From the NCBI GenBank assembly GCA_031291475.1, contig JARLIY010000096.1, forward strand, positions 26,653 through 90,652: DNA of 64,000 nt, given 5' to 3'. The notes beneath the pieces were generated by a model that saw only the letters and a program-made list of their open reading frames with translations, made no database searches and was not told the origin of the DNA. Position 1 is the stretch's first letter. Every line of letters starts with the position of its first letter. Origin of the DNA: Xanthobacteraceae bacterium (GTDB lineage Bacteria > Pseudomonadota > Alphaproteobacteria > Rhizobiales > Xanthobacteraceae). A program made the translations under genes and the position numbers. Shown here in pieces: positions 58,989 through 63,495 of this stretch.

Positions 58989-58996
58989 GTTAATCC
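58989..58996 (+). repeat. Left 8-bp target-site duplication GTTAATCC
   Basis: Identical to 62029-62036; abuts the left IR. Confidence 0.9.
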
Positions 58997-59020
58997 GGCA
59001 ACTATGTACTTGACAACGGA
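58997..59020 (+). repeat. Left terminal inverted repeat
   Basis: GGCAACTATGTACTTGACAACGGA. Confidence 0.93.
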
Positions 59021-59074
59021 GCGGGCATGTCGCATCCCGAAAAACGACAGGCCGACGCTTGGGTTACGTCGAAA

Positions 59075-59653
59075 CTAAGCGCCCCCGATCCTCAACTTTG
59101 CCTCTCGACGTTTCTTTCGCGCCGCCTTGCTCTTATGACCGCGAAAACGGTCCGAAGGCGGGAGCTTCTGGCTAAATCCACACTTCATCAGGAACGCCAT
59201 CAGCGACATGCCCGCTTGGTAGACGAAGAGGGCTTCGCGTTTGACCTGATCGACCGTCATTGGAATTAGTGAAGTTTCGACGCGCGTTCGCGCCGTGTCT
59301 TTCACCGTAAAAATCTGGCCGGTATCGGGATCGCGGCACCAACTATAGTGCACGACTCCATTTCTCTTTTTGAAAGCCTCTTCAATTGTATCGATGATGT
59401 TGTCCAGCTCATCTAAAGTGTCCAAATCGTCAATTCGGATTTCTGCGGAAGCGAGAAGGACGCTGAAGCGGAGCGGCATTGCCATGTGCGTGGTGACCGC
59501 TTGGCCGTATTCGACATCAATATCGAGAAAGCAAGCTATCGCCATTTCCACAACGTTTTCTGTCTGAGCCGCACACGTGGTCATGAGACCAATGGCTTCG
59601 AGCATGTCTTGTGGTAGGTTGCGCGGATCGAAATCATATTCCTTAAACGCCAT
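59075..59653 (-). CDS. IS passenger hypothetical protein
   Basis: MAFKEYDFDPRNLPQDMLEAIGLMTTCAAQTENVVEMAIACFLDIDVEYGQAVTTHM...; start chosen at MAFKEY; lies between the IRs. Confidence 0.65.
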   Translation of the reverse strand: MAFKEYDFDPRNLPQDMLEAIGLMTTCAAQTENVVEMAIACFLDIDVEYGQAVTTHMAMPLRFSVLLASAEIRIDDLDTLDELDNIIDTIEEAFKKRNGVVHYSWCRDPDTGQIFTVKDTARTRVETSLIPMTVDQVKREALFVYQAGMSLMAFLMKCGFSQKLPPSDRFRGHKSKAARKKRREAKLRIGGA

Positions 59654-59816
59654 GGCAAAAGCCTCTAAGCTCGGTCTTGACGAAGCGACGCTGCGTATCG
59701 CGCGGCGAATGTTAAGCTCGCCGCCCAAGCCGCATGAGGAAATGAAGCTGGGCAAGCCTAGAGCGAAATCGAAAAAGAATCCCGCACAGAAGACAACGAA
59801 AAAGCCAAGCAGGTAG
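59652..59816 (+). CDS. Small basic conserved hypothetical protein (IS passenger)
   Basis: MAKASKLGLDEATLRIARRMLSSPPKPHEEMKLGKPRAKSKKNPAQKTTKKPSR; resembles short proteins with a PPKPHxxMK motif. Confidence 0.5.
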   Translation: MAKASKLGLDEATLRIARRMLSSPPKPHEEMKLGKPRAKSKKNPAQKTTKKPSR

Positions 59817-59821
59817 CCTAA

Positions 59822-60154
59822 TCATTCGACCTTGACGTGGGCTGCAAATGTCCACAGGCAATCGTATACGCCGCGCGGTCGAATGCAGACATGACTGTAA
59901 TCTCTCTGGACCGATCCTTTGTCTATTTTGACGAATGTCTTTGGGGCCAGCGTGACGCAATTGTGGTCATTCTTGAATGCGATAGCGGCGCTGACATCAT
60001 CGGACAATAAGGTCGCATATTGCACGAAATCGTCCTCTTTCGGACAGGCGATTGTAATATCTACCGTCATGGCTGGCTGGGCGCGTGCTGCCCTGTGAGA
60101 GAGGCAGAAAATCGCCGCCCCCAATAAGGTGAGGACTAAGAAATGCCTGACCAT
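59822..60154 (-). CDS. Secreted hypothetical protein (IS passenger)
   Basis: MVRHFLVLTLLGAAIFCLSHRAARAQPAMTVDITIACPKEDDFVQYATLL...; signal peptide, Cys-containing. Confidence 0.6.
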   Translation of the reverse strand: MVRHFLVLTLLGAAIFCLSHRAARAQPAMTVDITIACPKEDDFVQYATLLSDDVSAAIAFKNDHNCVTLAPKTFVKIDKGSVQRDYSHVCIRPRGVYDCLWTFAAHVKVE

Positions 60155-60188
60155 GCGAGCGGTATTCTTAGATTTGAGAAGGACGGGT

Positions 60189-60467
60189 CTACCTCTGGGC
60201 ATCTTTACCTGGACCTAAGAGAGTCTGTGCGACGTTCAGAAAAGCGTCAGCGGCGAGCTTTAATTGTCGCGCGGCTTGCTCGATTGCTTCGTGTTCGTCT
60301 TTCGCGTTATCAAATGGAAACTCCAATTTTGCCCCCGGTACCACCCGCTCTGGTTTCAGTTCAAAAATTACTGTCCCGCTTACGGTCCACGTTCCGTCTG
60401 TGATAGTGGTTTGCTTTATGTCGATTCTTGGTTGACCGCTTATAAGAGAAGAAAAAATAGTAGGCAT
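60189..60467 (-). CDS. Hypothetical protein (IS passenger)
   Basis: MPTIFSSLISGQPRIDIKQTTITDGTWTVSGTVIFELKPERVVPGAKLEFPFDNAKDEHEAIEQAARQLKLAADAFLNVAQTLLG. Confidence 0.55.
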   Translation of the reverse strand: MPTIFSSLISGQPRIDIKQTTITDGTWTVSGTVIFELKPERVVPGAKLEFPFDNAKDEHEAIEQAARQLKLAADAFLNVAQTLLGPGKDAQR

Positions 60468-60617
60468 CGTTATTTTCCTCTACGTTTGCGCCAACGCAGA
60501 AACGCCTTCGCTTTCTGCTTAATGGTGCCTCTCGTTAGTCGGCCGGCACGTAAGGCGTCTCCGCGCTAGTCGTCGAGTTCTGACGCGTAACTTCTCCAAT
60601 TAAACCGGAATTTTGGA

Positions 60618-60940
60618 CGATGCCCGGGCTTGGGGCCGGGCATCGCCATCTCACTACAAACATGGAGGGCAACTCTACTCTAGGCCGTCACTGGCCCATT
60701 GGGGATGCGATCCCCCAACGCTAGTAGAACAAGAAGGACAGTTGTCCCGGCCACCTTCGCCAGTGCTCACGCACATGCTCACGGCGGCCATGGCGTGTTC
60801 GCTCGTAAGAGCAAACATGCACTGCCTTCACTGACATGTTTGCCATGTCAGGGCTCCATGCTTGGGCGGGTTAAAGCCCACCGCTCCAAACCTGCTGCAT
60901 GCAGGTTGCGGGACGCGGGAGTCCGGCCTAATGGGCCGGG
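60618..60940 (+). ncRNA. Candidate structured non-coding RNA: array of at least seven hairpins, strand assumed
   Basis: Stems CGATGCCCGG/CCGGGCATCG, GGGGAT/ATCCCC, GCTC-GTAA-GAGC, CTGACATG/CATGTCAG, TGGGC/GCCCA, AACCTGC/GCAGGTT, CCGGCC/GGCCGG in order; no convincing ORF. Confidence 0.45.
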
Positions 60941-61051
60941 CGGCATGGAGGTGCCAGTGACGGCCTATTTCACCGTGAGTCGGGGTATCGACGCAATCGG
61001 CGCTTGCGCCATCTGTGGAAACGTTTGGCTTGTTGTTTCAGCAACTTAGGT

Positions 61052-61972
61052 TCAGTGAGTCGGCCGGTACGTGAGGCGCTTGCCGGTGATACCCTTGGCA
61101 ATGAGCGCCGCACGTTCCCCGTCATTGATCTTGCGGGTGTTCCACTTGAAATCCCATTCCGCAAGATAGCGCGGCAAATGGGCTTCGCTGATTGAATGAT
61201 GCGTGCCGAACACGGCGCGCTTCATAAGGCTAAAGCGGCTCTCCGCCGTATTGACGTGAGCGAAGCCGCCAAGGCGGACGTACTCGTTCGCTGAGTGATT
61301 GACGGTCGTATGACCGGCAAACTCCTTGCCGATTGAGCCGTAGGACAACAACTCGTCAGTCACCAAGTGCGACTTGCGGTCGGCGACCTTGACCATGGCC
61401 GCGCGTAGCGTCCGGGCCTTCACGTTGGCGACGTGAAACGAGTGGCTATCGCCGTCGCGATCAACCAAAGTCAGGACCGAATGTTTCTTAGGTGGCTTCT
61501 TCGCATAGGCGCGGTTCTTCGCCTTGCCGCCAATCACGGTTTCGTCGCTCTCGACCGTGCGACCTTGGCCGCCGATAGGGCCGCGCTTCGCGGGCGTCAT
61601 CGCTTCCCTAATGCGATGACAGAGGAACCACGCGGACTTGTAGGTGACACCAAGCATGCGCTGCAATTGAAGCGCGCTCACGCCTTTCTTTGAGGCACCC
61701 ATGAGGTGCATTGCTAGGAGCCACTTGGAGAGCGGAATCTTGCTGCGCTCCATGACCGTGCCGACCGTGACCGTGAATTGGCCGTTGCATTCGGCGCAAT
61801 AGTACAGGCCGGGACGATGGGCTTTGCCTTCGCCCTTGGCGATCTTCTCTTGATCGGAGTTGCCGCAATGCGGACAAAACGGACCATTGGGCCAGCGGAT
61901 CGCCTCAAGGGTTTCGCGGGCCTTATCGTCGTTGTGAAACGCGGGGTTTTGGAGATCGGCGCTCATGGGCAA
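61052..61972 (-). CDS. IS1595 family (ISXO2-like) transposase
   Basis: Zn-ribbon CPHCGNSDQEKIAK...YYCAECNGQFTVTVGTVMERSKIPLSKWLLAMHLM, DDE-like ESDETVIGGKAKNR...VTDELLSY...NTAESRFSLMKRAVFGTHHSISEAHLPRYLAEWDFKWNTR. Confidence 0.93.
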   Translation of the reverse strand: MPMSADLQNPAFHNDDKARETLEAIRWPNGPFCPHCGNSDQEKIAKGEGKAHRPGLYYCAECNGQFTVTVGTVMERSKIPLSKWLLAMHLMGASKKGVSALQLQRMLGVTYKSAWFLCHRIREAMTPAKRGPIGGQGRTVESDETVIGGKAKNRAYAKKPPKKHSVLTLVDRDGDSHSFHVANVKARTLRAAMVKVADRKSHLVTDELLSYGSIGKEFAGHTTVNHSANEYVRLGGFAHVNTAESRFSLMKRAVFGTHHSISEAHLPRYLAEWDFKWNTRKINDGERAALIAKGITGKRLTYRPTH

Positions 61973-62004
61973 CTCCCTATGACGCCAATCTATACCCCGG
62001 CGCT

Positions 62005-62028
62005 TCCGTTGTCAAGTATATAGTTGCC
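62005..62028 (-). repeat. Right terminal inverted repeat
   Basis: Reverse complement reads GGCAACTATATACTTGACAACGGA. Confidence 0.93.
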
Positions 62029-62036
62029 GTTAATCC
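62029..62036 (+). repeat. Right 8-bp target-site duplication GTTAATCC
   Basis: Identical to 58989-58996. Confidence 0.9.
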
Positions 62037-63340: not shown

Positions 63341-63391
63341 TGGTGGGCGCACAAGGAGTCGAACCTTGGACCCGCTGATTAAGAGTCAGCT
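63341..63391 (-). pseudogene. 3'-half tRNA-Lys (CUU) fragment (probable attachment-site remnant)
   Basis: Reverse complement AGCTGACTCTTAATCAGCGGGTCCAAGGTTCGACTCCTTGTGCGCCCACCA: anticodon arm, T-arm, 3' acceptor, CCA; no matching D-arm or 5' acceptor strand upstream. Confidence 0.75.
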
Positions 63392-63495
63392 AATATCCAC
63401 ATGATTGCCGTGGCCATTCCGACAAACGCCTGTCCCAATGTGGGTTGATCCGCCTACGGAGTTTTCGGCTGTCGGAATGACAGAGCCCCCTTTGG

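Follow-up and report, generated by a model that had tools for sequence, protein, structure and literature searches.

Known structured RNAs of phages and transposons

In the AbiF system, the gene of a HEPN-type toxin has as its neighbour a structured RNA that neutralises the toxin (PMC12373285). The abiF RNA motif (RF03085) resembles the RNA described here in being structured, in adjoining the gene of a HEPN-type RNase, which in our case is a predicted one, and in residing on mobile elements, a prophage among them (PMC12373285). However, abiF motifs are units of 36-37 nt, whereas the RNA studied here, antisense to the HEPN-like gene, forms a single closed structure of about 290 nt; the RNA gave no match to RF03085, nor did the cargo protein match Pfam Abi_2, the AbiD/F family. 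An RNA antitoxin is also the basis of Type III toxin-antitoxin systems, and phage TE carries an RNA mimic of it, pseudo-ToxI, as RNA alone (PMC3475682). ToxI is a short tandem repeat, differently from our candidate antitoxin, which is a single large fold. In phage HK022 the put RNA, a folded RNA of temperate-phage early transcripts, acts on the elongating polymerase and suppresses termination (PMC9378689). The family described below differs from put in its variable position within operons and in its presence also in transposons. Moreover, put is smaller and less branched.

GOLLD and ROOL RNAs are large and ornate and are linked with phages and mobile DNA; their structures have reportedly been published, and our RNA differs from them in being shorter and in having no Rfam match. 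HEARO RNA, the IscB-associated omegaRNA, is a structured RNA of about 300 nt located within a transposon, as is ours; the latter, however, has neither sequence or structure match to it nor an accompanying IscB or TnpB, belongs to another transposon family and is also found in prophages. Finally, IS1595 transposons with passenger genes have the same transposase, terminal inverted repeats (TIRs), 8-bp target-site duplication (TSD) and cargo placed after the transposase as the element analysed here, which differs in having a conserved RNA; no conserved RNA inside an IS1595 element was found in the literature searched.

The RNA was identified in a 64,000-nt stretch of DNA from a Xanthobacteraceae bacterium, hereafter the window. 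We consider it very probable that positions 60681-60967 of the + strand represent a member of an undescribed family of structured RNAs, about 265-310 nt long, which travels with IS1595 transposons and temperate phages of Hyphomicrobiales; the hosts are soil bacteria related to Bradyrhizobium.

The IS1595 element of the window

The window contains an IS1595-family (ISXO2-like) transposon at 58997-62028, with the transposase on the - strand. It is delimited by a pair of 25-nt TIRs that are 96% complementary (58996-59020 and 62005-62029), and these are bordered by two copies of an 8-bp TSD, GTTAATCC, at 58989-58996 on the left and 62029-62036 on the right. The transposase (306 aa, 61052-61972, - strand) matches Pfam DDE_Tnp_IS1595 (E 3.2e-28) and Zn_ribbon_IS1595 and NCBIfam transpos_IS1595 (E 2.3e-50). 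The traits of IS1595 membership, a DDE transposase with a zinc ribbon, TIRs and an 8-bp TSD, are all present, and the sequence suggests an intact element.

On the transposase strand the transposase is followed by the fold and then by three cargo ORFs, 60467-60189, 60202-59822 and 59653-59075. The first two (60189-60467, 92 aa, and 59822-60202, 126 aa, both on the - strand) belong to no Pfam or NCBIfam family; the third (59075-59653, - strand) encodes a 192-aa protein with a HEPN-type RNxxxH motif. A small conserved basic ORF on the + strand (MAKASKLGLDEATLRIARRMLSSPPKPHEEMKLGKP...; ARRMLSSPPKPHEEMKLGKP), at 59652-59816, is divergent from the HEPN-like gene, and the start codons of the two overlap. 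Sequences similar to this small ORF were found in many IS1595 relatives.

Across the RNA from the transposase, at 60534-60557, a 24-nt direct repeat reproduces the 3' end of the transposase gene with 88% identity to 61055-61078, and in the relative L064 a block of this type is joined straight to the sequence beyond, the RNA segment being absent. This duplication, together with an element that has no fold, indicates that the window element is probably a chimera, arisen by recombination of RNA-bearing and RNA-less IS1595 elements. The RNA and the HEPN-like gene of the window may originate from two different elements.

A closed multibranched fold

The initial annotation had reported seven consecutive perfect stems within about 325 nt between cargo and transposase. 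This location is correct, and all seven stems are present with exactly complementary arms, the second one spanning 60701-60715. The region 60618-60942 contains five perfect hairpins with stems of 6 bp or more (loops of 3-9 nt), against a window mean of 1.02 per 325 nt, a density reached at 0.55% of window positions. The stems do not stand, however, as a row of separate hairpins: six of them are parts of one multibranched fold, shut by a perfect 15-bp stem that had been overlooked, and only the hairpin at 60618-60645 falls outside it. The shuffled-control folding that had been proposed gave a clear result, since the 381-nt segment 60600-60980 folds with z -9.0 on the + strand and -7.5 on the - strand, and none of 100 shuffles was as good.

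The core of the structure, defined by folding, by comparison with nine relatives and by covariation, covers 287 nt (60681-60967, + strand). It is closed by stem S1, which is palindromic in the window and whose 5' arm, TAGGCCGTCACTGGC (60681-60695), pairs perfectly with the 3' arm, GCCAGTGACGGCCTA (60953-60967). Four branches follow on the + strand. Hairpin S5, TTGGGG/CCCCAA (60699-60718), is based on folding and member comparison; the branched arm S4 (60733-60828) consists of two hairpins on an outer stem GAAGG...CCTTC and contains the GCTC-GTAA-GAGC hairpin at 60801-60812; hairpin S3, CTGACATG/CATGTCAG (60831-60851), is helix 1 of the covariance models R1-R3 described below; and arm S2 (60854-60950), with the stem CTCCATGC/GCATGGAG, encloses hairpins at 60865-60882, 60884-60921 and 60923-60939, the arm as a whole providing helices 2-6 of the same models.

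On the RNA strand, the separate hairpin at 60618-60645, of 10 bp by sequence check, stands immediately before the 5' end of the core, and a comparable hairpin occupies the same place in two relatives, L083 and L187. Near-identical copies of this CGATGCCCGG hairpin are present elsewhere, without the RNA, in two related genomes, G004 and G055 (loci L002 and L003), and it may be a common palindromic repeat. The adjoining string CGCCATCTCAC...GGAGGGCAAC (60643-60673, + strand) is common to the window and L083 only. It is nearly identical to the sequence that precedes a lysine-rich histone-H1-like gene as its leader and ribosome-binding site (GCCATCTCAC-N6-8-GGAGGGCAACATG), and that gene occurs once in each of 22 out of 200 related genomes (L149-L168 among the loci); the RNA and the leader string are found together only in the window and L083, and the string beside the RNA may be due either to chance or to a shared control element. 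A sigma-70 promoter scan around the RNA gave no match, such a scan being uninformative for this bacterial group.

No Rfam 15 family matches the fold region at gathering score, and relaxing the limit to E 10 adds only three sub-threshold matches, with neither HEARO (RF02033) nor any IS200/IS605/IS607-associated RNA among them; three relatives (L083, L170 and L171) have no match at E up to 1. The resemblance to HEARO/omegaRNA proposed at first is consequently abandoned, and a guide RNA of this type, left behind by its nuclease or served by one encoded at another site, appears extremely improbable: size and transposon setting are similar, but the window RNA has no match to HEARO or omegaRNA even at E 10, the element has no IscB or TnpB, and the relatives of the RNA lie in IS1595 elements and in phage early regions. 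Indeed, the absence of an IscB/TnpB-like nuclease, already noted in the initial annotation, agrees with the Pfam scan of the element ORFs, and none was seen among the ORFs beside the relatives, which were in part scanned with profiles. Elsewhere in the window, a weak tRNA match (30.5 bits against a threshold of 29) is located at 63344-63415 on the - strand.

Homologues in Hyphomicrobiales

Loci were collected by transposase similarity. Among them, L083 from Bradyrhizobium sp. URHD0069 gives a 436-nt alignment with the window on the downstream side of the transposase (62% identity, E 2.5e-21); its stems are the same but made of different bases, the closing stem being CCCAAGCTACCGTTAGC / GCTGACGGTAGCTTGGG. 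A covariance model of the S3-S2 domain, R1, was built from the window and L083, with loops hand-trimmed to equal length, and retrieved L170 and L171; R2, from four sequences, retrieved L185-L188, plus the genome of L083 again; R3, from eight sequences, retrieved L246 and L248, both in other families of the order. Each of the three Hyphomicrobiales searches had its own model; the genome sets overlapped and amounted to 776 genomes in total (G000-G775), and the filters applied lose weak matches. A search with R3 of 181 genomes, almost all of which belong to other orders of the class, found no further member.

The window and its nine relatives make ten members: in addition to the window, three are located beside IS1595 transposases, five in prophage early regions and one is isolated. 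All ten contain the closed core, 264-311 nt long, and in all of them the closing stem, which lies outside the models, is paired, each member having no more than two pairs other than standard or G-U ones. Compared two by two, the cores are 48-61% identical, apart from L185 and L187 (80%), and the relatives tested fold with z of about -5 to -11.

Pattern scans of viral contigs returned only chance matches and L181, an IMG/VR sequence that scores equal to L170 and represents either the prophage of L170 or a similar one; L254 did not match the model, and BLASTN against phages and plasmids yielded no real homologue. Six candidates (L172, L173, L174, L189, L247 and L249) were rejected as coding or chance from their fold and context. 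Matches to GTTGCCCTCC...GTGAGATGGC, at one place in each of 22 relatives, were likewise rejected as RNA homologues, the opposite strand being the leader and ribosome-binding site of the lysine-rich histone-like gene. Two further loci, L034 and L036, resemble the RNA by eye and are possible additional members; L034 scores 17.5 bits and L036 has no model match. Strongly folded gaps downstream of the transposase (z down to -8.4) were also observed in other IS1595 elements (L040, L065, L136, L031, L034 and L036), with a poor match to R3; these gaps may hold diverged or different RNAs.

Conservation of pairing

In the ten-sequence alignment 91.4% of cells are paired, and 27 of the 38 modelled pairs have changed on both sides; in hairpin S3 this is the case for five pairs out of eight. 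The covariation score is 0.607, compared with at most 0.106 when the partner is slid by 1-3 columns, and 500 shuffles all stay below the observed values. The alignment behind the pair counts was fitted to the structure and so favours pairing; L246 and L248, however, were aligned with a model built without them, the pair counts from four and from eight sequences agree with those from ten, and the slid controls retain relatedness, and for these reasons we regard the RNA-type structure as established. It is conserved through compensatory changes across homologues and is neither chance nor HEARO. Together with folding far below shuffles and the absence of an Rfam 15 family, these changes, which had been suggested as a check, bear out the view that the region is an undescribed structured RNA.

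They also bear on two other explanations. That the region encodes a protein is exceedingly unlikely: two open frames, of 73 and 116 aa, overlap it, and some relatives are also open there, but no significant family match was obtained, indels shift the frames between homologues, and the changes keep pairing and not frame, in keeping with the earlier remark that no convincing ORF covers the segment and with the lack of a conserved protein. The conserved feature could also be the DNA itself, for example a nested miniature element or palindromes that fold when the DNA is single-stranded in the course of transposition, as may be suggested by the almost equal folding of both strands, by closing arms resembling terminal inverted repeats and by the 24-nt direct repeat that flanks the segment. 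This seems improbable to us, since the fold ends (60681 and 60967) have no TSD, the genome has a single copy of the fold, the fold occurs in prophages that have no transposase, and a branched structure with many covarying internal stems exceeds the needs of a miniature element. The fold, conserved by compensatory changes, is present at ten loci in two kinds of context, and presumably works as a folded RNA.

Carriers and orientation

In the window, L083, L187 and L248 the RNA always lies between the IS1595 transposase and a cargo gene, on the opposite strand; in L083 and L187 only remnants of the transposase are left. L170, L171, L186, L188 and L246 are prophage-like regions with varying combinations of integrase, CI-like repressor, methyltransferase, ParB-like or HNH genes. 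L185, isolated, adjoins a defence-like gene and another gene that we take to be DUF2130-like, and given its 80% identity to L187 it may be an IS1595 relic.

In the five prophages the RNA is codirectional with the adjoining early genes, or points away from the CI-like repressor. This orientation relative to early genes and repressor places the RNA on the + strand of the window, from which we infer that it is transcribed antisense to the transposase. Folding energy showed no strand preference in the window and its relatives. The balance of G-U against A-C in stems, which seemed decisive in three stems, evened out with more stems and was dropped as a guide to the strand.

The phage setting could point to a cis-acting RNA of early operons that alters transcription, as put does, the segment having been acquired by transposons. 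Indeed, half of the members are in prophages, codirectional with early genes, the repressor is near the RNA in L170, L171 and L246, and put demonstrates that a folded RNA alone can suffice (PMC9378689). We judge this explanation rather unlikely: the operon position varies, with the RNA adjoining the repressor in L246 and following three genes in L186, and no repressor seen nearby in L188, and the IS1595 copies have no codirectional downstream gene, the RNA running head-on into the transposase end.

HEPN-like cargo proteins

The four IS1595 members all have a neighbouring cargo protein of about 190-290 aa with an RNxxxH motif: KKRNGVVH in the window, FRNRMAH in L083, RRNEIVH in L187 and KRNKLAH in L248. 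In an alignment of 11 cargo proteins, a set chosen by motif, R, N and H are the sole invariant residues, corresponding to R97, N98 and H102 of the window protein. HEPN RNases have this pattern as their active-site motif, Rx4-6H with a polar residue after R (PMC3710099). The cargo proteins show the same spacing and the polar residue, so that on the basis of the motif they are putative HEPN-type RNases. Searches of Pfam, NCBIfam, PADLOC and PDB with the cargo proteins gave no significant match: the window protein has no Pfam match, and the best one, HEPN_RiboL-PSP, is a weak match (E 0.05) of the L187 cargo only.

Cargo of 150-320 aa with an RN/RH/RDxxxH motif follows the transposase in 36 of 113 IS1595 loci, mostly without an RNA model match; the motif being so common, finding it in all four members has p 0.009, which rises to 0.05 when the comparison is limited to long-gap elements. 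These 36 proteins fall into many barely similar subfamilies (L028-L136; e.g. L030:278-910, L040:69-758, L065:5359-6003). Across IS1595 elements, HEPN-like cargo was not significantly associated with a structured gap (median z -3.3 versus -2.3, p 0.11).

By analogy with AbiF and phage TE, the IS1595 copies could be toxin and RNA antitoxin pairs and the prophage copies decoys. In the transposons, the RNA would bind and restrain the adjoining RNxxxH HEPN-type RNase; the copies of phage early operons, beside which the profile of cargo proteins recognised no HEPN-like gene, would disarm the RNase as decoys. We put this forward as a tentative proposal of fairly low probability. Against it count the closest HEPN-like relatives, L030 for the window cargo and L043 for the L187 cargo (46% in both cases), which have no RNA match, L043 having just 134 nt of space.

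At least as likely as the antitoxin mechanism is a trans-acting RNA of mobile elements with a partner other than HEPN-like proteins, such as an RNA chaperone, a host RNase, the polymerase or a defence protein. It is favoured by the presence of the same fold in two unrelated kinds of mobile element and by neighbouring genes that vary between copies; nothing positive, however, indicates a particular partner, and we regard it as a plausible possibility that falls short of even chances.

Meaning for mobile elements of Hyphomicrobiales

If the antitoxin proposal were correct, IS1595 transposons of Hyphomicrobiales would carry a new class of toxin-antitoxin systems, in which a large folded RNA restrains a HEPN RNase, and in temperate phages the RNA alone, expressed early, would serve as a decoy that disarms this RNase; at present we think this broader claim speculative and rather improbable. 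Large conserved RNA structures are uncommon in bacteria and usually signal a specific function, and one that occurs both in transposons and in the early regions of phages gives a clue that it may take part in conflicts of mobile elements with their hosts. Ten sequences and a pairing model make the RNA directly testable, with its HEPN-like neighbours as the first candidate partner.
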